A DNA stretch of 62,291 bases from Ignavibacteriota bacterium. GTDB lineage: Bacteria > Bacteroidota > Ignavibacteria > Tepidaquicellales > Tepidaquicellaceae. The notes under the pieces were generated by a model that had not been told where the DNA came from, searched no databases, and was given only the letters and a program-made list of their open reading frames with translations. The translations under genes were made by a program, and so were the position numbers. Positions 165-11,655 of this stretch are shown in pieces (position 1 is the first letter of the stretch; each line of letters starts with the position of its first letter). Where the stretch lies: positions 1 to 62,291 of the forward strand of contig JAPLFJ010000062.1 in NCBI GenBank assembly GCA_026390735.1. Reading direction: 5' to 3'.

Positions 165-2030
165 CTATTTAATCATTACCATTCTTTTGGTTTCCGTATA
201 GCTGCCCGAACGGAGTACGTAATAGTATACACCGCTTGAGTATCTGCTGCCGTTCCAGTTAACTTGGTAAACACCTGTTTTCATGTATTCACTCTTCAGT
301 GTTTCGATTTCCTGTCCAAGTGAATTGAATACCTTAAGTGTTACGTTTGCATCTTTTGGAATCTGAAACTTAATAGTAGTTACCGGATTAAAAGGATTCG
401 GGTAATTATTGTAAAGCTGATAACTTTTTATCGTTCCTGTATTCTCATCAGGCTCTAATTCATCATTACTGGAGTTGTTAGTTTTTTCTCTTATGCGTCC
501 TTCTGAAACATAATCCACATTATTAAGAGAAATAATGCAATCCTTCAGAGCAATAAATTCAGGAATACCTGTAGGTTCAACATTTTCAACTTCTATTCCC
601 ATCATCTGAAGAATCCCATACAGACCTTCATTAATAGTGAACGTGTATTTCCTTGCAGGGTTGAACTGCTGGTTGTTTATTCTTATTGAAGAAATCATTA
701 CACGGTTTCCAACGGGGTTATTTGGGTTATATTTGAAAATCATACCCGATACCTGAAGAAAGAAATCTTCTGAAATACCAAGTTGTGAAAGACCAGTTTC
801 AAGACCCTTTATTAACTCTGTCCCTCTGATTTTCATCTTCAGCAGATTAAATCCGAGTCCTGTTGTTGTGTCGAAACCGTATGCAGCAGTCTGAAATATA
901 TCAGCACTGTTAATCTTTCCTTTGTATATTTTCTGTGTAATAAGTCCGTTAGCAGTTATTGCAATATCAGTATGAGTCTTGCGCCTGTAACTGTCCGTAA
1001 TCAGGTTTCCTATCGGACTGTCCTTGTAATGAACGTTGTGACTGTTGTTTGTTCTTCCAATATCATTCTTTGCAGTGCCAATCATAGTTCCGTAAACATC
1101 TCCGTACGTCGATACTATTCCCTGTTTAAGATAGTCGACAACTCCCTGAATTTCTGTTGCCTGTGGAACTGATGCATCTGCATGAATAAGGTCATAACTG
1201 TTGAATGTTACTCCTGTAGCGGAGTAAGTAAATTTTAATTTACCAACGTATTCATAACTTTCTCCAGCCTGTACAACGTAAGTCTGGAATCCTGCAGGGT
1301 TGTTAACTGTTTTTGGCTGGTTAAATAAATAGTGGTCATGTCCCCCTACAATAATGTTAATTCCCGGTATGTTTGCTGCCAGCGAACTGTCTATTGCCCA
1401 GCCGAGGTGAGAAAGCATTATAATGACATTTGCTCCTTGGCCCTGCAATGCTGATACGGTTGCATACGTTATTTCAGCAATGCTGTCGTTAATTACGACC
1501 GGGTATGGATTTCCTAAAGGACTTGGAATAGTCATTCCGAAAATACCTACCTTAACACCCGATACGGTCTTGATTGTATAAGGTGTTACAAAATTACCGA
1601 GCTGCGGGAATCCGCTTAAGTTAAGGTTTGCTGAAAGAACAGGGAAACCACCGTTTGGAAAGCTTTCCTGCAAAACGGAATACAGTGTTGTGGAACCTAA
1701 GTCAAATTCGTGATTGCCAACTGTCAGTGCATCACAGCCAAGCTGTTGAAGAATCTGAAGTTCGGGTACTCCGAAATACTTGTTGAAGAATAAATCTCCG
1801 ACACTGAAATCTCCCGCATGTAAAAACATAACATTTGGTTCTGTAGCTTTTACAGTTCCGATAATTGTTGCGGCTTTTCCGATTCCGCCAATCGTTCCTT
1901 TGTTATTCGCATCCTTCGGTCCAAAGGCGTCAAGATGTGAGTGGGAATCACCTGTGTGTAATAGAGTTATTTGTGTGCTCTGTGCGTACACGAAACTGGT
2001 GAACAGTAAGAAAAATACTAAAGTCTTCAT
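165..2030 (-). CDS. Secreted 5'-nucleotidase / UshA-like metallophosphoesterase with T9SS C-terminal sorting domain
   Basis: The protein is a predicted exported calcineurin-like phosphoesterase joined to a 5'-nucleotidase C-terminal domain. Metal-binding motifs are clear (TGDSHSH, HAGDF, GNHEFD, then SHLG and GGHDHY), matching the two-metal site of UshA. The second domain begins around SPIGNLITDSYRRKT; the substrate loop usually read as NGGGIR is replaced by NGLITQ, so substrate preference may differ. The last ~85 residues form a type IX sorting domain starting NNYPNPFNP. I start at the ATG at 2030 (MKTLVFFLLFTSFVYAQ, a signal peptide), because a GGAGA sits 8 bases upstream; an in-frame ATG at 2045 would add five residues. 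Likely a surface enzyme releasing phosphate from nucleotides. Confidence 0.88.
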   Translation of the reverse strand: MKTLVFFLLFTSFVYAQSTQITLLHTGDSHSHLDAFGPKDANNKGTIGGIGKAATIIGTVKATEPNVMFLHAGDFSVGDLFFNKYFGVPELQILQQLGCDALTVGNHEFDLGSTTLYSVLQESFPNGGFPVLSANLNLSGFPQLGNFVTPYTIKTVSGVKVGIFGMTIPSPLGNPYPVVINDSIAEITYATVSALQGQGANVIIMLSHLGWAIDSSLAANIPGINIIVGGHDHYLFNQPKTVNNPAGFQTYVVQAGESYEYVGKLKFTYSATGVTFNSYDLIHADASVPQATEIQGVVDYLKQGIVSTYGDVYGTMIGTAKNDIGRTNNSHNVHYKDSPIGNLITDSYRRKTHTDIAITANGLITQKIYKGKINSADIFQTAAYGFDTTTGLGFNLLKMKIRGTELIKGLETGLSQLGISEDFFLQVSGMIFKYNPNNPVGNRVMISSIRINNQQFNPARKYTFTINEGLYGILQMMGIEVENVEPTGIPEFIALKDCIISLNNVDYVSEGRIREKTNNSSNDELEPDENTGTIKSYQLYNNYPNPFNPVTTIKFQIPKDANVTLKVFNSLGQEIETLKSEYMKTGVYQVNWNGSRYSSGVYYYVLRSGSYTETKRMVMIK

Positions 2031-2080
2031 TTGGATAATCTCCATTTTAATTTTAAAATCAGTTCAAAATTAAAAATAAA

Positions 2081-2146: not shown

Positions 2147-2827
2147 CTATTTCACGAATTTGTATCCGGCAGAATGTATTGTCTGAATATGTTTTGGTAC
2201 TGAGGGATTATTTTCAATCTTTTTTCTTATCATTAAAATGTAATTATCAACTGTTCTTGTAGTAGGGAATACGTCGTAGCCCCAGACCTCGTCAAGAAGC
2301 TGGTTTCTTGTTACGACTTCACCCTCGTGCTTTATGAAGAACTTAAGTATTTCAAATTCCTTAAGAGACATTTCAAGAGTTTTCTTTCCCTTAACTAATT
2401 CCAGTCTCTTAAAGTCGAGCTTTATGTCAGCAAATGTGTAAGTCTCAAAATCCTTCTCTATATTGTTAACGCGCCGGAGTATTGCATTTATTCTCGCAAT
2501 AAGTTCTCTGATGCTGAAAGGCTTCGTAATGTAATCATCTGCACCAAGCCCTAGCCCCAGTACTTTGTCTGACTCTGCACTCTTGCCCGTAAGCATAATG
2601 ACAGGTGTGTTCATATTCTGGCTTCTTATATCTCTGCAAATATCGAACCCGTTTTTAGACGGAAGCATAACGTCGAGTATTATCAGGTCGGGTTTATTCT
2701 TTATAGCAGACTGAAACCCTTTTTCCCCGTCTGCCTCTGTGAGCACCTTGAAGTGTTCTAGTTCAAGGTTTTCTTTCAGTCCTTTTGAAATCGAACTGTC
2801 GTCTTCAACGATTAATATTGTTTTCAT
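2147..2827 (-). CDS. OmpR/PhoB-family response regulator
   Basis: A 226-residue two-domain transcriptional regulator. The receiver domain carries acidic residues D9-D10, phospho-acceptor D52 in LIILDVMLPS and conserved K102 in DDYITKPF. The C-terminal winged helix (about residues 130-226) has the usual EFEILKFF and TVDNYILMIRKKIE segments and ends GYKFVK. It lies 10 bases downstream of a histidine kinase gene on the same strand, so the two almost certainly form one operon and one signalling pair. The signal and target genes are unknown; the neighbouring secreted phosphoesterase is a possible target only by position. Confidence 0.93.
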   Translation of the reverse strand: MKTILIVEDDSSISKGLKENLELEHFKVLTEADGEKGFQSAIKNKPDLIILDVMLPSKNGFDICRDIRSQNMNTPVIMLTGKSAESDKVLGLGLGADDYITKPFSIRELIARINAILRRVNNIEKDFETYTFADIKLDFKRLELVKGKKTLEMSLKEFEILKFFIKHEGEVVTRNQLLDEVWGYDVFPTTRTVDNYILMIRKKIENNPSVPKHIQTIHSAGYKFVK

Positions 2828-2837
2828 AATCTATATG

Positions 2838-5189
2838 TTATGTTTCTGAAATTTTAAACCTGAGTGAAAAAGTACTTCCTTTTCCTACTTCGCTCTCTAC
2901 TTTTATTTCGCCTTCATGCGCAGACATAATATTCTTAACTATTGCCAGTCCTATTCCCGCTCCTCCTGTATGTTTCTCGTTTTCCTTCTGAATCCTGTAA
3001 AAGTTTTCAAATATGTTTTCAAGTTCTTTCTCTTCGATGCCTTTTCCGTTATCCTTAACAGATATTAAAGCGTGGTCGTTATCAAGTTTTAAGCTAATTT
3101 CTATTATCGGGTTTTCACCGGAATACTTAAGTGCGTTCGAGAGAAGATTAATCAGTACTTCGGAGATTGCATCACTGTCAGCATTGATAAACAGTTTCCC
3201 GCTGCATACATTCTTTATGAGTTCTGCATTATTCTTTTTAAACTGGTATTCCATTGTATTCAGAATGTATTCAAGAATGCTGTTTACACAAATCGTTTCA
3301 AAATAGTATTTTTTGATACCTCTTTCAATCTTTGAGAAGTCAAGTATAGTGTTTATTATTCTCGTGAGTCTTCCGCTTTCTCCGTAAATAATCTCTGCGT
3401 ATTCCTTTTGCTTATCCTTGGCTATTTCCCTGTCAGACATAAGGGTTTCGGCAAAAAGCTGTATTGATGTTAAAGGGGTCTTCAGTTCGTGTGAAACACT
3501 CGATACGAAATCAGACTTCATTGAATTAAGTTCTTCGAGCCTTTTCTTTTCTGTTTCGTTTATTATTATTTTCTCTCTGAGTTCAATCCTTTGAAGCAGC
3601 GATGCAGCATTGTCGGCAAAGGACTTTAGTATCTCAAGGTCTGAATCAAGGTATTTTATTCCCGAGAGTTTTTCTCCAAGCATTATTGCCCCGATTTCTT
3701 TTCCAGGCTGAGCCGTTAAAGGAATCATTATAATATACTCAGGATTGTTTATAATGGTATCCGTAATATCTGTGTTCTCGGCGCTTTCATTAATACCTGC
3801 GAGAAACCTGAAATGCCCTCCTTCTCTATCTTTAAGAAGAATGGAAGATTTTCTTGTCGGTATAATCTCGTTAATTTCTCTCAACAGTTTCTCGCCGAGT
3901 TCCTTGGATGTGTTACAGTCAGCAAGATTCCGGTTTACCTTATTTATGGCTTTTCTGAAATCATACCTTACCCTGTAAAAATACTTATCAACGAATCCCT
4001 GAACTTTGATTCTCAGAGGATTGAATATAATTGCAATGAATACTGCAGATATCAGCGAATACACAGGCTGCATTTCTCCAATTGCGTTTGAAAACACTGT
4101 ACTTAACGCATATATCGTAAAGAAAAACAACCCTGTAAGAACAATGGTTATCGTACCGTAAACAATACTTTTGCTGAATATGAATTCAATATCGAAAAGT
4201 TTGTACTTTAAAACACCTATCACGAATGACAATGGGATTAAAATAAGGAATGCCATGGAATATTCTTCTTCAATAATCAAACCCGAATTCAGAAGGTTTG
4301 GTATCACCCAGAACAATATGTACGGCATGAGGCCCGTAAGTAAGCCCCATAGCGCCCATTGTACTCTCCGCCTGTCGCTGTCTTCTTTGTTCGAGAAAAA
4401 CGAAATGCCGAAATTAACTATTGCCCATACTGCTCCTGAAAGAAGGACAAAAAGGAGTACTTTCCATAATGTGTGATATAAATCAACGTAGAATAATTCA
4501 TTACCTGTTACAATTTTTAACTGTACGAAATTTATTGCCAGGCCGAGTATTGTTATAAGCACATAAACAGTTCTTACTGCAAACTTTGACCCATAAATTC
4601 TTTTCGGGAATATAAGGGAGAAGTGTATCAACAATGATATTCCTCCTGTGTATGCAAACATGTGAAGCACTCTTATGAGTGTTGAATATGATAAAAGTGA
4701 AGCATAGCACTTACCCGGAGACGTCATTATAGCGGCGGAAAAAATAATCAGCATTGCGAAAAGAACCTTTGCAGTAGTTTCCTTCGGTTTTCTCATAAAC
4801 ACAAAAAACCCCAGGCACCAGAAGGTTATTCCAATTGTACTGCTGACGTACAGAAAAGAGCTGTCTTTATATGCTTTAACAAGTTTTACTTTAATGGGGT
4901 ATTCGGTCTTTCCGTTCTGAATCTTTAATGTGACCTCATCTCCTACGTTCAAAACGTCCGAACGAAACTCTACCTGGTTTGCATCGTTAAGTGCTTCGCC
5001 GTTAAATTCTTTAATGATTGAACCTTTTGAGATATATCCCTGAAAGTCTTCGGTTACTATAATAGAGTTGTTTAACTCTTCATAAGCAAAAGGTAAAGTT
5101 GGTTTGTTCGAAAGTAATTCAATGCCGGCTATTCCGGTTGCCAGAGCAGCTAAAGCAAATAAAAAGCCTAAATAGCTATAAATCTTCAT
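2838..5189 (-). CDS. Membrane sensor histidine kinase with N-terminal PDZ-like domain and GAF-like domain
   Basis: A 783-residue kinase. Residues 1-25 form a membrane anchor. Residues ~45-105 look like a PDZ fold, with GYISKGSIIKEFNGEAL resembling the carboxylate-binding loop. About eight membrane segments follow (roughly 115-390), then a GAF-like region (~410-530), a dimerisation/phospho-acceptor domain with H567 in SSVSHELKTPLTS, and an HATPase domain with N, DNGKGIEEKEL and GGAGIGLAIVK boxes. The PDZ domain suggests sensing of peptide ends in the periplasm. Pairs with the response regulator 10 bases downstream. Confidence 0.9.
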   Translation of the reverse strand: MKIYSYLGFLFALAALATGIAGIELLSNKPTLPFAYEELNNSIIVTEDFQGYISKGSIIKEFNGEALNDANQVEFRSDVLNVGDEVTLKIQNGKTEYPIKVKLVKAYKDSSFLYVSSTIGITFWCLGFFVFMRKPKETTAKVLFAMLIIFSAAIMTSPGKCYASLLSYSTLIRVLHMFAYTGGISLLIHFSLIFPKRIYGSKFAVRTVYVLITILGLAINFVQLKIVTGNELFYVDLYHTLWKVLLFVLLSGAVWAIVNFGISFFSNKEDSDRRRVQWALWGLLTGLMPYILFWVIPNLLNSGLIIEEEYSMAFLILIPLSFVIGVLKYKLFDIEFIFSKSIVYGTITIVLTGLFFFTIYALSTVFSNAIGEMQPVYSLISAVFIAIIFNPLRIKVQGFVDKYFYRVRYDFRKAINKVNRNLADCNTSKELGEKLLREINEIIPTRKSSILLKDREGGHFRFLAGINESAENTDITDTIINNPEYIIMIPLTAQPGKEIGAIMLGEKLSGIKYLDSDLEILKSFADNAASLLQRIELREKIIINETEKKRLEELNSMKSDFVSSVSHELKTPLTSIQLFAETLMSDREIAKDKQKEYAEIIYGESGRLTRIINTILDFSKIERGIKKYYFETICVNSILEYILNTMEYQFKKNNAELIKNVCSGKLFINADSDAISEVLINLLSNALKYSGENPIIEISLKLDNDHALISVKDNGKGIEEKELENIFENFYRIQKENEKHTGGAGIGLAIVKNIMSAHEGEIKVESEVGKGSTFSLRFKISET

Positions 5190-5449: not shown

Positions 5450-6724
5450 TTATCTCTTCTTCCCATACCAAACCTCGCATACTGCTTCCACAAGTTTGTC
5501 AATGTCCTCTTTTGTATGGAGAGCCATCAGCGATATTCTGAACCTCTGCTGACTTATAGGAACTGCAGGATATTCTATAGAATTAAGGAATATTCCCATT
5601 TCGTGAAATTTAAATACCGAATCTCTTATCTTCATTTCTGCCGGTACCCTTAGCGCTATTATAGGAGTCTGTGTCTTTATGTCAAACCCGTTTTCGTTTA
5701 ATTTTGCAACTGCGTAGTTGACGTTTGAACGCAACTGACTAACGTATTCCGGATGTTTGATTATGGCTTCCAGTCCTGCTTTTACTGCAGCCACTATAAT
5801 TGGCGGCAACGATGCTGAAAACATATAAGACCTCGCGAAGAATCTAAGGTAATCAGTAACACATTTATCTCCTGCTACAAAACCTCCAGTCATTCCAAGT
5901 GCCTTGCTGAACGTTCCCATAATAATATCAACGTCGTCTTCAACGCCGAAATGCTGAGCCGTTCCGCCGCCCGTTTCTCCTGTAACCCCTGTTCCGTGCG
6001 CATCATCAACTATCAGGCTTGCCTTGTATCTTTTGCAGAGCGGTGCAATCTCGTTAAGCGGCGCCATATCTCCATCCATTGAATACACTCCTTCTACACA
6101 CACGAATATTTCTCCTTTAACGACACTACGGTGTTTGATTAATAAGTTCTCTAAATCTTGTACATCATTATGTCTGAACTTATACGATTCAATTCTTCCC
6201 ATCTTTATTCCGTCGCATAGAGAAGCGTGACTGTACTCATCATACAAAACTATATCGTCTCTGTTCACGAGTCCCGTCACCAGACCTACGTTAGCACCGT
6301 ATCCTGATGCAAATATCATCGCGCTTTCTTTCTTCTTGAAATCAGCAAGCATTTCTTCAACTTCGTAATGCAGCTTTGTGTATCCGTTCAGAAGCGGCGG
6401 TCCGCCGATTCCTATTCCGTATTTCTCTATAGATTTCTTTACGCTTTCCTTTATGTAAGGATTGTTTGCGAGTCCAAGATAATTATTCGAGCCGAACATC
6501 AGCATCTTCTTTGTCTTTCCCGTTTTCGGGTCTATTACACTTACTTTTCTGTCAGCCTGCGAATCGATTACTCTCATATAAAGTACCCTTTTGTTTTCAA
6601 TTTCTTCGTTTATGTAATTTGAGAAGAACTCTGTTCTCTCTTTAAGGGTCTTCCTTCTTGTCTGAATAAGTAAATCACTCAAACTGAAGTTTTCCCCGCC
6701 CTGATATGTATTTGTATTTTCCAT
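5450..6724 (-). CDS. Alpha-oxoamine synthase (KBL / serine palmitoyltransferase / BioF family), PLP-dependent
   Basis: A 424-residue aminotransferase-fold enzyme that would condense an acyl-CoA or acyl-ACP with an amino acid and lose CO2. Signature residues are present: GSNNYLGL near 78-85, H166 in YSHASLCDG, D241/H243 in VDDAHGTG, and the PLP-binding K274 in GTFSKALGMTGG. An N-terminal extension of ~40 residues precedes the usual start of the fold. Resemblance is closest to serine palmitoyltransferase-like and CqsA-like members rather than to a biotin-operon BioF; no bio genes are nearby. It is the last gene of a five-gene minus-strand cluster (rSAM, ThiL-like, lipid-kinase-like, UbiA), which argues for a role in a specialised lipid or long-chain amine. 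Exact substrates cannot be read from sequence. Confidence 0.85.
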   Translation of the reverse strand: MENTNTYQGGENFSLSDLLIQTRRKTLKERTEFFSNYINEEIENKRVLYMRVIDSQADRKVSVIDPKTGKTKKMLMFGSNNYLGLANNPYIKESVKKSIEKYGIGIGGPPLLNGYTKLHYEVEEMLADFKKKESAMIFASGYGANVGLVTGLVNRDDIVLYDEYSHASLCDGIKMGRIESYKFRHNDVQDLENLLIKHRSVVKGEIFVCVEGVYSMDGDMAPLNEIAPLCKRYKASLIVDDAHGTGVTGETGGGTAQHFGVEDDVDIIMGTFSKALGMTGGFVAGDKCVTDYLRFFARSYMFSASLPPIIVAAVKAGLEAIIKHPEYVSQLRSNVNYAVAKLNENGFDIKTQTPIIALRVPAEMKIRDSVFKFHEMGIFLNSIEYPAVPISQQRFRISLMALHTKEDIDKLVEAVCEVWYGKKR

Positions 6725-6807
6725 TATAGTCTTCCTTTTGTTTTAATTTCTAATGTAAAAATATATTCAATGCCCTTTTCTATTGTCACGCACAGGTAAA
6801 TCAATTG

Positions 6808-8247
6808 TCAAAATATTGTAAAAGAATGACTGAACTCAAACCTGTCGGCTTTCACTTCTTTTGGTTCTTTGCCGAAATATTCTTTATACAGCGGGTAAAC
6901 TTTCTTTACTGCATGGTCTTTCTGGAATACAGATAATTTAATCAGTATCAGGGATGATACCATTATGTTTATGGTTCTTCTTATAACATTGTCATAACCA
7001 AGTTGTGCTTTCACGAGTCTGTACACTCTTCTCAGTGTATTCTTCACAGAGTAGAATGATTCGTTCACGTTTCTGTAAGCATCGAATACTTCCTTTGGTG
7101 TAACTTTCTTCGGAATAATAACAAGATGGTCTCCTTCGTAATGTGAAAGTTCATCGTCGACAATCCTACCTTCTTCGCTCACAGTTTTATGAAATGCCGT
7201 ACCCGGAATCGGTATCGATAACGAAGTAAGTATTGCCGCAGGGTCAACGTCTTCAAGTTTATCAATGAGTGAATCATAGTATTCCTTTGTGTCTTCATCG
7301 AGTGCAAGCATCAGTCCCGCAAAAACAAGTATTCCGCGCTTCTTCAACTTCATAAATAATTCCTTGTACTCTTCAACCTTGTTCTGCTTCTTATGAACTG
7401 AGGCAAGACTCTGCTCGCTTATAGATTCCATTCCGATAAATGCCATCCTGCAGTTTGCCTCTGCAAGCAGGTCAACAAACTCATCGTCCTGCAGGCAGTC
7501 AAAACTGAACTGCACTCCAAGTCCCCATAACTTTAACTTTGCTATTTCTTTAAGAAGTTCTTTTGCATATTTCCTGTCGCCTCCAAGATTGTTGTCGAGA
7601 AGCATCGCAAACTTTCTCTTATGAAACGGCAGTGATGACGCTGACTTCAAATCGTTTATGACATCTGCAACAGGTCTTTTTCTGTAAGGCATCGGAGTAA
7701 TGTTCAGCTGACAGTAGCTGCACGTAAACGGACACCCTCTCGTTGCTTCAGTAACAACCGGCATTGCAAAGTCAGACTCAATAAGGTCATACCTCGGCGC
7801 AGGAATGCCTGCAAGAGATTTCAGCACTGGGGCTTTATAAGATTTCTCAAGCCTTCCGCTGACTGCATCGTAAACAACTTTCTCCCATATACCTTCTGCC
7901 TCGCCAATAACAGTTGAATTGAAATAAGGAATAACCTTATCAGGAAAGTTAGTTGCATACCTTCCTCCTGCAATAACTGTCTTTCCAAGTTCTCTGAACT
8001 TTCTGCTAACTTCTTTTGCGTGTTCAAAACAGTAATCCATAAAACTCAGCGCAACGATGTCAGCATCAGTGTTATAATCTATCGGCCTTACCATTTCGTG
8101 CAGAAGTTCTATATCTACTATCGGCGGAGTAAGTCCCGCAAGCAGTGCTCCCGAAAGCGGGGGTGCAGGGCTCTTTGCAAAGTCGAACCTGTTTTCTCCT
8201 GCCAGGTTCTGAAACAATACTATTATTAAGAGTTTTTGCTTTTTCAT
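6808..8247 (-). CDS. B12-binding-domain radical SAM enzyme
   Basis: A 479-residue protein with an N-terminal cobalamin-binding-like Rossmann domain (about 1-135; no DxHxxG motif, as is common in this class) followed by a radical SAM barrel with the cluster motif C172-x3-C176-x2-C179 in TRGCPFTCSYC. The GGRYATNFP and GEAEGIWEKVV segments are typical of class B radical SAM proteins. A C-terminal helical region (~400-479) is unassigned. Such enzymes methylate or rearrange unactivated carbons, often in lipids and isoprenoids. The gene sits 12 bases downstream of the ThiL-like gene in the five-gene cluster. Confidence 0.87.
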   Translation of the reverse strand: MKKQKLLIIVLFQNLAGENRFDFAKSPAPPLSGALLAGLTPPIVDIELLHEMVRPIDYNTDADIVALSFMDYCFEHAKEVSRKFRELGKTVIAGGRYATNFPDKVIPYFNSTVIGEAEGIWEKVVYDAVSGRLEKSYKAPVLKSLAGIPAPRYDLIESDFAMPVVTEATRGCPFTCSYCQLNITPMPYRKRPVADVINDLKSASSLPFHKRKFAMLLDNNLGGDRKYAKELLKEIAKLKLWGLGVQFSFDCLQDDEFVDLLAEANCRMAFIGMESISEQSLASVHKKQNKVEEYKELFMKLKKRGILVFAGLMLALDEDTKEYYDSLIDKLEDVDPAAILTSLSIPIPGTAFHKTVSEEGRIVDDELSHYEGDHLVIIPKKVTPKEVFDAYRNVNESFYSVKNTLRRVYRLVKAQLGYDNVIRRTINIMVSSLILIKLSVFQKDHAVKKVYPLYKEYFGKEPKEVKADRFEFSHSFTIF

Positions 8248-8259
8248 TTTCTTTTCTCC

Positions 8260-9288
8260 TTAAAAACTAAAGATTTTAAAAAGTTCTTGTATGTATTCCT
8301 CTGTATTACCTTTTGTCTCTGAAAGTAAATTTCTTATTCTCGCAGAATCCGGATAGTATATTATTTCATCTGCGGCTATGTTAATCTTTATCTCGCGGCA
8401 GACCTTTCCAATTCTTATCGGATTCCATCCGATTATTTTTGCTTCTTTAAGAAATGCATCGTTGTCTTTTTCGTTTACTGTAAACACGAGTTCAAACTCT
8501 CCGTGTTGTCCTGCAAGCATTATGAGCGGCGACTTTTGTACAAGCTTTGCCATCTCAATTGATTCAGTGTCAATGTATTCATCCGGCTTTGCGTCTATTA
8601 TAAACCCTTTTTTGTTAACCCTCATTAACTGGTCAAGTGTTGTTATCACTCCGTCGCTTGTGTCCATACAACAGCTTGCATATTTCCTCATAATCTTTCC
8701 GTGTTGGATTCTTGACTCGGGCATATACTTAATGTTTTTTCCCGTTTCATAAATCTTTGTTAATGCATAAGCACTTCCTCTTCCTGCATATCCCGAAATG
8801 TAAACAAGGTCTCCTTCTCTGCATCCTTTTCTCGTTACAACCTTATCGTCGTTTATTAGTCCGATTGCAGTTGCTCCGAATTGCCTTACAGATGAAAAGT
8901 TAGTATCACCGCCAAGTACAAAAAATCCCGTTGCCCCGCAGGCATCGTTAATTCCTCTTTGTATTTCTGAAATAAATTCAGGCGTATCATTTTCTTTGAA
9001 TGTCTCATTCAGAAGTAATCCCAGCGGTTCTGCACCAACAGCAGATATATCACTTGCGTTTACCATTACTGCCATCCACCCAATCTGGTATGGGTCGGTG
9101 TATAAACCCTTTTCGATTTCCTCTGAAATGACATCCGTTGTTACTGCCATCATTACCGAAGTACCCGGTAAGCTTATTATTTCTGCATCGCTTTCGTTCA
9201 GTTTATTCACTTGCAGAGTCGAGCGTTTTAAATTTCTGCAGAGTGTTTCAACAAAGTTGTTTTCTGATATGATGTTTTTTACCTGCAT
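8260..9288 (-). CDS. ThiL/PurM-superfamily ATP-dependent enzyme (thiamine-monophosphate kinase-like)
   Basis: A 342-residue AIR-synthase-fold protein. The N-terminal half has VTTDVISEEIEKG, IGWMAVMVNASDISAVGA and VLGGDTN, all hallmarks of ThiL; the second half has GDLVYISGYAGRGSAY and MDTSDGVITTL. True ThiL usually begins with a DDAAV metal motif, which here reads SDAEIISL, so the acidic pair is not fully kept. The start overlaps the end of the lipid-kinase-like gene by 10 bases. With no thiamine genes nearby, I infer a paralogue acting on the cluster's own phosphorylated intermediate rather than on thiamine phosphate. True ThiL remains an alternative. Confidence 0.75.
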   Translation of the reverse strand: MQVKNIISENNFVETLCRNLKRSTLQVNKLNESDAEIISLPGTSVMMAVTTDVISEEIEKGLYTDPYQIGWMAVMVNASDISAVGAEPLGLLLNETFKENDTPEFISEIQRGINDACGATGFFVLGGDTNFSSVRQFGATAIGLINDDKVVTRKGCREGDLVYISGYAGRGSAYALTKIYETGKNIKYMPESRIQHGKIMRKYASCCMDTSDGVITTLDQLMRVNKKGFIIDAKPDEYIDTESIEMAKLVQKSPLIMLAGQHGEFELVFTVNEKDNDAFLKEAKIIGWNPIRIGKVCREIKINIAADEIIYYPDSARIRNLLSETKGNTEEYIQELFKIFSF

Positions 9289-10193
9289 AGTTGTATGGCT
9301 TTATTTATTATTGAAAACCTTGCTGTATCTGTTGATACAACTTCACCGTCGAACTCTACGTTAAACTGTACATCCGAACTTATCTCAATCTTATCCGATT
9401 CACCTGATTGTATACTGATTTTTCCTTTGTTCTTCCATAGTCTTGCAAGCATTAAAAGTGTTTCTATAATACTTTTATTCTCCATCAGGTACAGACTGAA
9501 AAGACCGTTAGAAGGATTGTATGTACCGGGATAAACAAACTCACCTGCAAAGTTAGGATTCTTTGCAATTCCAAGGTTTGATATCACCGTGTCCTTTATG
9601 CTGAAAACATCAGACGACATGCGGCATTTCTTGTTTTTATACTGTGATATTGTTTTTAATGCCGAATAAAGAATGGCCATATTCACAAAATGTCTTTTAA
9701 AGAAATCCCACATCATTCCTTTGTGGTTAAAATATTTATTGGCATCTGCAAGAATTCCTATGCTCGCATTTATCATCCAGTATCTTGTCTGAAGGAAAAT
9801 CCTGTTGTCGTAATATTCAATAACTCCCACATCGCAGGCTTCTGTGTTTTTAAAGTCTATCCTTACGGGTATGCCGCATATCCATTCATTGTAAGGTTTG
9901 TGAAAGTCGTTGCTCGAACCTAATCCGATTGCACCAACCTTAAACCTCTGAAATTCCTGATTGAAAGAATTTGATATGAGCAGATTGATTAATGAGTTGA
10001 ACGTCCCGTCTCCGCCTGCCGATATATATTCCGTTTCACCCTTTGCTATCGCATCGCTTATATTTGTGCAGGCAAAGTCATTTGCCTCTATTATTTCTGC
10101 ATTCGGGAATAAACTCATTACGTGTTTCTCTACTTTATCCCATTTAGCAGAGGCTCGTCCTGAATTTGCTCTTTTATTTAAATAAATTATCAT
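9279..10193 (-). CDS. Diacylglycerol kinase / YegS-type lipid kinase family protein
   Basis: A 304-residue protein of the DAGK_cat fold. The nucleotide loop GGDGTFNSLINLL (60-72) is intact, and IGLGSSNDFHKP corresponds to the family GTGNDF motif with one substitution. The C-terminal part (YPGTYNPSNGLFSLYLM, then VEFDGE) follows the YegS/LCB5 plan in which the lipid acceptor is held. It would phosphorylate a lipid-like alcohol. Translationally coupled to the next gene by a 10-base overlap and 12 bases downstream of the UbiA gene. Confidence 0.82.
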   Translation of the reverse strand: MIIYLNKRANSGRASAKWDKVEKHVMSLFPNAEIIEANDFACTNISDAIAKGETEYISAGGDGTFNSLINLLISNSFNQEFQRFKVGAIGLGSSNDFHKPYNEWICGIPVRIDFKNTEACDVGVIEYYDNRIFLQTRYWMINASIGILADANKYFNHKGMMWDFFKRHFVNMAILYSALKTISQYKNKKCRMSSDVFSIKDTVISNLGIAKNPNFAGEFVYPGTYNPSNGLFSLYLMENKSIIETLLMLARLWKNKGKISIQSGESDKIEISSDVQFNVEFDGEVVSTDTARFSIINKAIQLCR

Positions 10194-10205
10194 TGTCTTG
10201 TCTCC

Positions 10206-11231
10206 TTATATTTGCTCTTTCATTGGTCTTAATTTCAAAGTAATCACGTATCCTGCATAAAACACACACAGCGCCAATCCCCACTTGGGTCTTGCATTAG
10301 CAGCAATTGAACCAATCATTAAAATGTATGAATGGACAACAGGCGATATTGCTTTGTATGCAAACTTTTCATCGCTTACTCTGTGAAGCATAACCTGCGA
10401 ATATACAAGCGTTATTATTCCCGGTACTGCAAGAATAATCACATAAATATTCAGGTGATTCAGAACCCCTGTACTCATCATCACAACACTCCACGATACA
10501 AGCATAAGCAACGCGAATACATCAGAAACATAAGACGAAACCTTAAAGCCGTATTTTACGAGCAGTGTGTTGTACCCTGTTTCCCTGTCTGCTGAAACAT
10601 CTTTGTAATAACCTGTCAGTACAAAGTTTGCATATCCGAAAAACACTGCAAAGAGTCCTCCGAAGTATGCTGTACTGAAAGATGAGATGCTTAATGGCAT
10701 AAAGCATAGATATGCAATCGTGAACAAAGCACCGACTATCCACGCATTGTAAAAAGGTCCGCCCCACCATCTTCTTTTAAAGTAAGTGTATGTTGCCAGT
10801 CCGAGTGATGCTATAATAGCCAGTATAAATCCCGGAAATGAAAAGTATAAAACCGTAACGCCTATTAACAGCAAACCTGTTATGCTGATTATCAGCACAG
10901 ACTTTTTTGAAATCCTTCCGCTTACAAGCGGACGGTACGGCGATGAAATGCTGTCGGTGTCTGTCTGGAAGCAGTCTGTCAGTGCCTGTCCGAACCCATA
11001 CGAGAGGAAGAAACACAGAGCAAGTATTAGCGAAGACAGAATATCACCCCTTTGCGAAAGTGACAAGCCTGCTATTCCTGTAATGCCCGAAACAAACAAC
11101 AGGTAAGGTCTCATCGTAATAACGTAATTCTTCACCAGTTTCTTTAGCGGTGCAATAACTTCTGTGTTCAATATGTCATTTATTCTGTATCCGTAACTGT
11201 ATTTCCCGTTTGAATTTATTATGTATCCCAT
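10206..11231 (-). CDS. UbiA-family membrane prenyltransferase
   Basis: A 341-residue integral membrane protein with about eight or nine helices. Both Asp-rich motifs of the UbiA family are visible: D86-x4-D91-x-D93 followed by SPYRPLVSGRIS, and YYKDVSADRETG with D211 and D215. The PYRPLVSGRIS tail after motif one is common to UbiA, DGGGP synthase and chlorophyll synthase types. The aromatic or alcohol acceptor is not evident. It is the first gene of the five-gene minus-strand cluster and is transcribed divergently from cysS across a 424-base gap that should hold the promoter. A menaquinone or heme role is less likely because no such genes are nearby. Confidence 0.87.
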   Translation of the reverse strand: MGYIINSNGKYSYGYRINDILNTEVIAPLKKLVKNYVITMRPYLLFVSGITGIAGLSLSQRGDILSSLILALCFFLSYGFGQALTDCFQTDTDSISSPYRPLVSGRISKKSVLIISITGLLLIGVTVLYFSFPGFILAIIASLGLATYTYFKRRWWGGPFYNAWIVGALFTIAYLCFMPLSISSFSTAYFGGLFAVFFGYANFVLTGYYKDVSADRETGYNTLLVKYGFKVSSYVSDVFALLMLVSWSVVMMSTGVLNHLNIYVIILAVPGIITLVYSQVMLHRVSDEKFAYKAISPVVHSYILMIGSIAANARPKWGLALCVFYAGYVITLKLRPMKEQI

Positions 11232-11655
11232 TTTCGTATTCCTTTATTTTAATTTTCACTCAAAATTATAAATACACAGGAAAAAGAGTGTCACTTCCTT
11301 GTAAATCAATTGTCAAAAAGATGTCATAGAATAAATTCATTGGAAATGCTTTTAAGACAAATCAATTTTTCAGGCTGCTGTATTTCACAAGCAAAGATGT
11401 TTGTGATACACTTAATTTATAGTCAGGTAACTATATTTTGCTTGTTATTACACTAAAACGTTCATTTTCAGAGAAATTTTCAGTATCGGATTAACCTCAG
11501 ACCTATTTGAGACTAATTAGAGGCCAAGGAGTGGCCAAGGAGATACTAATTAGGAGTGTAAATGAGATGATAGTATGAATCCTATGTTTCCAATTTTTAT
11601 CCTCAGGAGATTTTATTTGAATTTAATTTCTTGGTAATAAGTTGTAATTTAAAGA
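11232..11655. other. Divergent intergenic region between UbiA cluster and cysS
   Basis: No coding frame with support. It should contain the promoters for both flanking transcripts but no convincing boxes were picked out. It holds two copies of GGCCAAGGAG (11522-11531 and 11533-11542) with an 11-base period, themselves bracketed by direct repeats ACTAATTAG (11512-11520 and 11545-11553). Confidence 0.6.
11512..11553. repeat. Nested short direct repeats, 11-base period
   Basis: ACTAATTAG, then GGCCAAGGAG twice at an 11-base period, then ACTAATTAG again. The nested arrangement is exact to the base and lies upstream of cysS. Confidence 0.6.

Follow-up and report, generated by a model that had tools for sequence, protein, structure and literature searches.

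A conserved four-gene cluster of Ignavibacteria joins sphingolipid-type and isoprenoid-type enzymes and may direct the synthesis of a phosphorylated lipid

What would a UbiA-family prenyltransferase, a YegS/DgkB-type lipid kinase (DAGK), a ThiL-like kinase, a radical SAM enzyme, and an alpha-oxoamine synthase (AOS) make together? The question is raised by five intact open reading frames (ORFs) that lie in this order, head to tail, on the minus strand between positions 11231 and 5450 of a contig from an Ignavibacteriota bacterium (JAPLFJ010000062.1; assembly GCA_026390735.1, 97% complete, hereafter G000). The whole stretch analyzed, 62,291 nucleotides, is referred to as the window. As the original prediction, made from the letters of this DNA, had proposed, all five families are present on one strand, each with a Pfam match above the cut-off (Table 1). 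On this sequence evidence the five superfamily assignments are firm; none of the enzymes reaches an NCBIfam function cut-off. Counted from UbiA, the intergenic distances are +12, -10, +12, and +83 bases, which bears out the 10-base overlap and the short gaps (12 to 13 bases) of the first description, but not for the space before the AOS gene.

A UbiA profile search (E 1e-20) across 391 genomes of the class recovered an ortholog in 22, all of whose loci were inspected in the window or in fetched stretches. The UbiA, DAGK, ThiL, and AOS genes occur on one strand and in the same order in 21 of these 22 genomes, the run being divided between two contigs in G329 and G003. Two genomes outside the class sample are named separately: MAG43, whose contig (L036) carries all five genes, and G493, a member of another class, which carries the four core genes. 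The core order is thus kept in seven families of one class plus one genome of another. Beyond the class, a phylum sample of 395 genomes gave only G493, besides three weak UbiA matches (58 to 66 bits, in genomes of family f50) around which the other genes were absent within the 17 kb fetched. At every one of the 23 junctions measured, with start codons chosen by script, the DAGK and ThiL-like genes share 4 to 16 bases. The genes flanking the cluster vary from family to family, as judged by eye from ORF lists. Loci L037 and L038 were treated as those of G305 and G381, each counted once; since several loci stop at contig ends, all adjacency counts are lower bounds. The recurrence of the same four genes in one order and on one strand across the sampled genomes indicates a cluster beyond chance. 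The neighborhood survey therefore upholds the claim of a real conserved unit, and the families were not found scattered in relatives.

The exception among the 22 genomes is G257, where the ThiL-like and UbiA genes form a divergent pair, 12 bases apart and with ThiL in front (L102, 8310-10325). A DAGK-type gene, 27% identical, lies ∼1 kb upstream of this pair, and a short-chain dehydrogenase/reductase (SDR) gene, a radical SAM gene, and a two-component system lie ∼10 kb from it. There is no AOS gene at this locus, and the serine palmitoyltransferase (SPT) model gives 477 and 320 bits for the two other AOS proteins of this genome. The divergent pair may represent an earlier state of the module. 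As a separate observation, the DAGK frame of G321 (L089, 5917-6833) is split into two pieces, by assembly error or genuine loss.

The radical SAM gene was initially counted as one of a set of five, but the core is four genes and the radical SAM gene is an optional accessory. Searched in 99 relatives and then as a profile in the 391 genomes of the class, it has an ortholog above 650 bits in 20 of them (21 before G302, with a distant protein of 307 bits, was dropped). Most genomes that have the gene carry it after AOS; the window has it between ThiL and AOS, and in G044 it is divergent and upstream of UbiA. It is absent both at the locus and from the class profile matches in 5 of 22 genomes (G003, G092, G104, G114, and G198), one of which, G198, is a single contig. 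In G003, which belongs to the same genus as the window, the operon is otherwise kept, with 75 bases between ThiL and AOS where the window holds the radical SAM gene. We read the enzyme as a tailoring step. Its CxxxCxxC motif is kept in 16 of 16 sequences and its best subfamily score is for HpnJ (84 bits; cut-off, 578). The label "B12-type" given to it at first stands as a likeness to B12-binding subfamilies, all scored far below their cut-offs; no B12-binding Pfam match was found at E 0.001.

Other genes accompany the cluster in part of the genomes. An SDR gene adjoins it in 7 of the 27 genomes whose loci were read (upstream of UbiA in 6), the window not being among them. KdsR is among the family models matched by two of the three SDRs that were tested, with 114 bits in MAG43 and 125 bits in G256 (cut-off, 400). 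The genes flanking the cluster in G305 and G381 include a type 2 isopentenyl diphosphate (IPP) isomerase, over its cut-off, and a polyprenyl-synthase-like gene that stays below the cut-offs. Both the SDR and the two-component system described below were missing from the gene set as first proposed.

The AOS scores practically alike against SPT (NF047600, 372.4 bits) and BioF (372.2 bits), reaching neither cut-off (640 and 426, respectively), and its best match among solved structures is the SPT 8guh. Roles of the motif residues checked in our active-site survey were taken from family knowledge. Lys274, His166, Asp240, His243, and Arg396, which we take to be the pyridoxal phosphate lysine, one of two histidines, the aspartate, the other histidine, and the carboxylate arginine, are kept in 21 of 21 sequences, and a GGPPLLNG loop stands where SPT differs. 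A second and better SPT match (463 to 514 bits) exists in 37 of 40 genomes, i.e., in 18 of 21 genomes with the cluster and in all 19 without it; no copy in the 40 genomes reaches 640 bits. The G000 copy, on contig C28, is 36% identical to the window AOS, and this genome also holds two AOS paralogs labeled Kbl-like by eye. We considered that the cluster AOS replaces SPT and set this aside: the 463- to 514-bit copy is missing in three carriers (G091, G321, and G329), too few to conclude.

Among solved proteins, the one nearest to the window UbiA by sequence is digeranylgeranylglyceryl phosphate (DGGGP) synthase 6m31 (E 9.5e-14), an enzyme that uses a phosphorylated alcohol lipid as its acceptor. 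The best NCBIfam score of this UbiA is 79 bits (cut-off, 269). Members of the superfamily carry two Asp-rich motifs, NDxxDxxxD and DxxxD. The first reads TDxxQxDxD in all 22 homologs, with T for N and Q for the second D, whereas the second is kept as KDxxxD in all 22; the G257 protein reads CDTFDLETD and retains the second-D Asp. Quinone and chlorophyll routes were rejected for the window UbiA, since G000 has four other UbiA homologs with higher PF01040 scores, and so was an EboC cluster (NF035940, 35.7 bits; cut-off, 250). In the DAGK, GGDG and DGE are kept in 22 of 22 proteins, and the score against TIGR00147 is 54 bits (cut-off, 119). Kinases of this family are well known on diacylglycerol, acylglycerol, and sphingosine, and the family includes sphingosine kinases.

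The ThiL-like enzyme has probably been repurposed, and a thiamine role is unlikely for it. Its AlphaFold model (pLDDT, predicted local distance difference test, 88.6) retrieved ThiL structures as all of its top 12 Foldseek matches, and the protein scores 153.3 bits against TIGR01379, below the cut-off of 184; copies free of contig-end cuts span 139 to 182 bits. The Asp positions checked are kept except the first Asp of GDDAA, which is replaced in 22 of 22 proteins, by Ser in 20 and by Thr and Ala in the remaining two. ThiE was searched for in 26 carriers of the cluster and 24 non-carriers. Carriers in this search, as in those for sensors and geranylgeranylglyceryl phosphate (GGGP) synthase, include four genomes without the full core: G257, with its divergent pair, and G006, G139, and G162, which have a radical SAM ortholog and no UbiA match (contig ends cut the G006 and G162 loci); MAG43 was left out. 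ThiE exceeds its cut-off in a single carrier (G092) and in two non-carriers, four other carriers giving matches of 21 to 23 bits only; no ThiE match was found in G000, where, as elsewhere, ThiN-type synthases were not searched for. Given this rarity of ThiE among carriers, most of them, G000 included, appear to lack the usual thiamine phosphate route, ThiN aside. Considered on their own, the counts of ThiE (3 of 50 sampled genomes) and of ThiL over cut-off (2 of 40) suggest dependence on outside thiamine.

As a tentative answer to our question, we propose that the cluster is an accessory lipid-biosynthesis operon. The AOS would condense an acyl thioester with an amino acid into a long-chain amino ketone, i.e., a sphingoid-like base, which a coupled SDR could reduce in some genomes. 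The DAGK-type kinase would then phosphorylate the alcohol and the ThiL-like kinase, acting on this phosphorylated intermediate, would add a second phosphate; the DGGGP-synthase-like UbiA would attach an isoprenoid chain to the phosphorylated base, and the radical SAM enzyme, where present, would tailor the product. A PDZ-type histidine kinase (HK) and a PhoB-like response regulator (RR) might adjust expression, perhaps by sensing the lipid. Substrates, step order, product, and sensed signal are inferred. Several lines of evidence favor the proposal: the intact catalytic positions of AOS and its best solved match, SPT; the kinship of UbiA to an enzyme with a phosphorylated-alcohol-lipid acceptor; the core order in 21 of 22 genomes, MAG43, and G493, with the invariable DAGK/ThiL overlap; and a ThiL fold kept while 25 of 26 carriers lack ThiE over the cut-off. 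Consistently with the proposal, SDR genes stand upstream of UbiA in six genomes, weakly KdsR-like in two of the three tested; isoprenoid genes stand beside the cluster in G305 and G381; the ThiL-like/UbiA pair and a DAGK-type gene persist in G257 without AOS there; and the congener G003 keeps the operon without the radical SAM gene.

Several points weigh against this proposal. The altered first Asp motif in all 22 UbiA homologs means that use of a normal prenyl diphosphate is not assured, and the better SPT match elsewhere in 37 of 40 genomes makes a further sphingoid base not obviously needed. SDR adjacency is confined to 7 of the 27 genomes, and isoprenoid neighbors were seen in a single genus. 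Gene distances are correlated (r, 0.60 to 0.81), but this comparison has no null and vertical descent would yield the same. Finally, all substrates are assigned by inference. The interpretation first offered is partly supported: the cluster does look like one of lipid or isoprenoid chemistry.

The nearest competitor, which we regard as possible but rather unlikely, has the two kinases activating the prenyl donor instead of the base. DAGK would make the monophosphate of a prenol or lipid alcohol, the ThiL-like enzyme the diphosphate, and UbiA would transfer this donor onto the AOS product. Conversion of a monophosphate to a diphosphate is the chemistry of ThiL itself, and the tight UbiA-DAGK-ThiL triple, with its divergent remnant in G257, fits this scheme. 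Plant phytol salvage, with two kinases and a transferase (VTE5, VTE6, and VTE2; PMC5745509), offers a precedent. Against it, the IPP isomerase and polyprenyl-synthase-like neighbors of one genus (G305 and G381) point to a donor made de novo, the DAGK family is better known on other lipids, as listed above, and the first UbiA motif is altered. The data do not decide between donor activation and the base-phosphorylation proposal.

Neighboring regulators introduce a further alternative. In 18 of 27 genomes, the cluster has an HK or RR of the window type no more than 3 kb away (HK in 15, RR in 17), as it does in 15 of the 23 genomes with the full core; G044, with such a pair ∼6 kb off, and G493, with a dissimilar pair, were left out of these counts. 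In 6 of 27 genomes, a full-length homolog of the 5'-nucleotidase-family protein, which travels with the two-component system, is also encoded close to the cluster.

Table 1. Coordinates of the cluster and associated genes in the window
Feature	Coordinates	Strand	Evidence
UbiA-family prenyltransferase, core gene 1	10206..11231	-	PF01040, 85 bits (cut-off, 34.2)
YegS/DgkB-type lipid kinase (DAGK), core gene 2	9279..10193	-	PF00781, 32.5 bits (cut-off, 23.6); 10-base overlap with core gene 3
ThiL-like kinase, AIRS/PurM superfamily, core gene 3	8260..9288	-	PF00586, 77.2 bits (cut-off, 24)
Radical SAM enzyme, accessory gene	6808..8247	-	PF04055, 59 bits (cut-off, 29.5)
Alpha-oxoamine synthase (AOS), serine-palmitoyltransferase-like, core gene 4	5450..6724	-	PF00155, 194.2 bits (cut-off, 19.7)
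Histidine kinase (HK), associated regulator	2838..5189	-	GAF, HisKA, and HATPase after modeled sensor region
PhoB/OmpR-like response regulator (RR), associated	2147..2827	-	Family matches
5'-Nucleotidase-family protein, type IX secretion system (T9SS) sorting tail	165..2045	-	Travels with two-component system

In the model of the window sensor (pLDDT 79.9, weaker past residue 300), one long helix is followed by a PDZ-like domain and then by nine further long helices; on this model, the ten long helices are taken to span the membrane. Foldseek ranks a PDZ domain first among the matches of this model (E 3.4e-3), with no match below 0.001, and the helix-bundle matches to G protein-coupled receptors were discarded as weak and generic. 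The window's own sensor region has no match to the Pfam family PDZ_2, which is matched, at E up to 1 (best, 3.4e-7), by 10 of 12 homologous regions. In the 50-genome sample, an HK sensor above 350 bits occurs in 19 of 26 carriers and in none of the 24 non-carriers. The scoring alignment was itself built from carriers; 7 of the 19 high-scoring sensors were outside it, and 5 of those 7 sit away from the cluster.

The operon might make a lipid autoinducer sensed by the neighboring PDZ-type HK, in a layout like that of CqsA-CqsS or LqsA-LqsS and with a sensor like ComP. We consider this improbable, although the frequent adjacency, the carrier-biased sensor scores, and the resemblance of the modeled layout to that modeled for ComP (PMC9620489) all speak for it. 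Similar sensors of 268 to 322 bits occur in 5 of 24 non-carriers, the 350-bit level is not exceeded in 7 of 26 carriers, and the alignment derives from carriers. The HK-RR-nucleotidase module stands alone in G015 (L158), and in G198 (L153) it lies far from the cluster. Moreover, the AOS scores just 211.5 bits against the CqsA-type alpha-hydroxyketone synthase model (cut-off, 428), and the window's own sensor lacks a PDZ Pfam match. An exclusive link between sensor and cluster was accordingly rejected on the grounds of the non-carrier sensors and the solitary module.

Two further observations concern these regulators. An extra RR of ∼305 amino acids lies between kinase and regulator in four loci (L036, 9948-10856; L049, 1952-2863; L090, 7713-8630; and L128, 7217-8137); when this longer RR was tested in L090, family matches fell mostly on the receiver half. 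In the window, the 12-base repeat CTAATTAG occurs twice, 33 bases apart, at 11509-11553 in the gap between the divergent UbiA and cysteinyl-tRNA synthetase genes, and is a possible regulator site.

The boldest extension of the base-phosphorylation proposal would be a new lipid class, in which an isoprenoid chain is joined to a sphingoid-type base that a repurposed thiamine kinase has di-phosphorylated; it would be made by the four-gene operon, read by a ComP-like sensor, and serve both as membrane component and as signal. So complete a picture is a long shot, a shade less credible to us than the autoinducer itself.

An archaeal-type ether-lipid route in a bacterium, with UbiA as a true DGGGP synthase, is highly unlikely: the nearest solved UbiA is that enzyme and the GGGP synthase family is over its cut-off in 16 of 26 carriers, but also in 7 of 24 non-carriers; PF01884 (GGGP synthase) has no match in G000, which at 97% completeness leaves the plain route unsupported for this genome, and does not reach its cut-off in nine other carriers; UbiA scores 57.7 bits against PRK12882 (cut-off, 296); and the AOS and ThiL-like kinase would be left unexplained. 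Just as little credence goes to a loose set of genes whose ThiL-like member is the plain thiamine-phosphate kinase of the genome, which the modeled ThiL fold, the 139 to 182 bits against TIGR01379, and the presence of ThiL over cut-off in so few genomes (hence seldom another copy) would favor, but which the scarcity of ThiE (ThiN not having been searched for), the invariable loss of the first GDDAA Asp, and the overlap with DAGK at every junction contradict.

The cluster unites sphingolipid-type and isoprenoid-type enzymes in one operon, with a ThiL-fold kinase in mostly ThiE-less genomes and often beside a PDZ-type sensor. Such a conserved four-enzyme set must make something, yet no described pathway was found for it: as originally predicted, our literature search, with most subscription journals outside its scope so that absence is not proof, gave no pathway uniting these families and no named prenylated sphingolipid. 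Present in several little-studied bacteria, the set resembles an undescribed pathway leading to a phosphorylated lipid with an isoprenoid chain; relatives that have or lack the operon, or the radical SAM gene, offer a direct test of its product.

The cluster can be compared with several known systems. In bacterial sphingolipid and sulfonolipid synthesis an SPT-type AOS acts first and a reductase follows; the SPT-like AOS, the lipid kinase, and, in some genomes, the adjoining SDR are shared features, whereas the core here includes UbiA and the ThiL-like enzyme, the AOS does not reach the SPT cut-off, and most of the genomes tested hold a better SPT match at another place. The ThiL-like enzyme resembles ThiL in fold and in most acidic positions, and differs in the replaced GDDAA Asp, the score below the cut-off, and a genomic setting where ThiE exceeds its cut-off in just one of the 26 carriers. 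The two kinases of the cluster belong to families other than those of phytol salvage. Plant salvage of phytol to tocopherol by VTE5, VTE6, and VTE2 may share the logic of two successive lipid kinases and a prenyl/phytyl transferase (PMC5745509). Archaeal-type ether lipid synthesis uses GGGP and DGGGP synthases (PMC7852524); among solved proteins, UbiA is nearest to DGGGP synthase, but here there is no GGGP synthase match in G000, the first Asp motif is altered, and an AOS is present. ComP has been modeled with ten helices, the PDZ-like domain following the first of them, earlier helix counts being in conflict (PMC9620489); the model of the window sensor agrees with this layout, although its PDZ-like domain has no Pfam match, and the regulator here is PhoB-like. 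Lastly, alpha-hydroxyketone quorum sensing by CqsA/CqsS and LqsA/LqsS combines an AOS-superfamily synthase, a membrane HK, and an RR (PMC3376566). Many copies of our cluster likewise have an AOS-superfamily synthase close to a membrane HK or an RR, though such pairs also occur without the cluster; our cluster has several more enzymes, and its sensor, as modeled, combines a PDZ-like domain with ten long helices instead of six.

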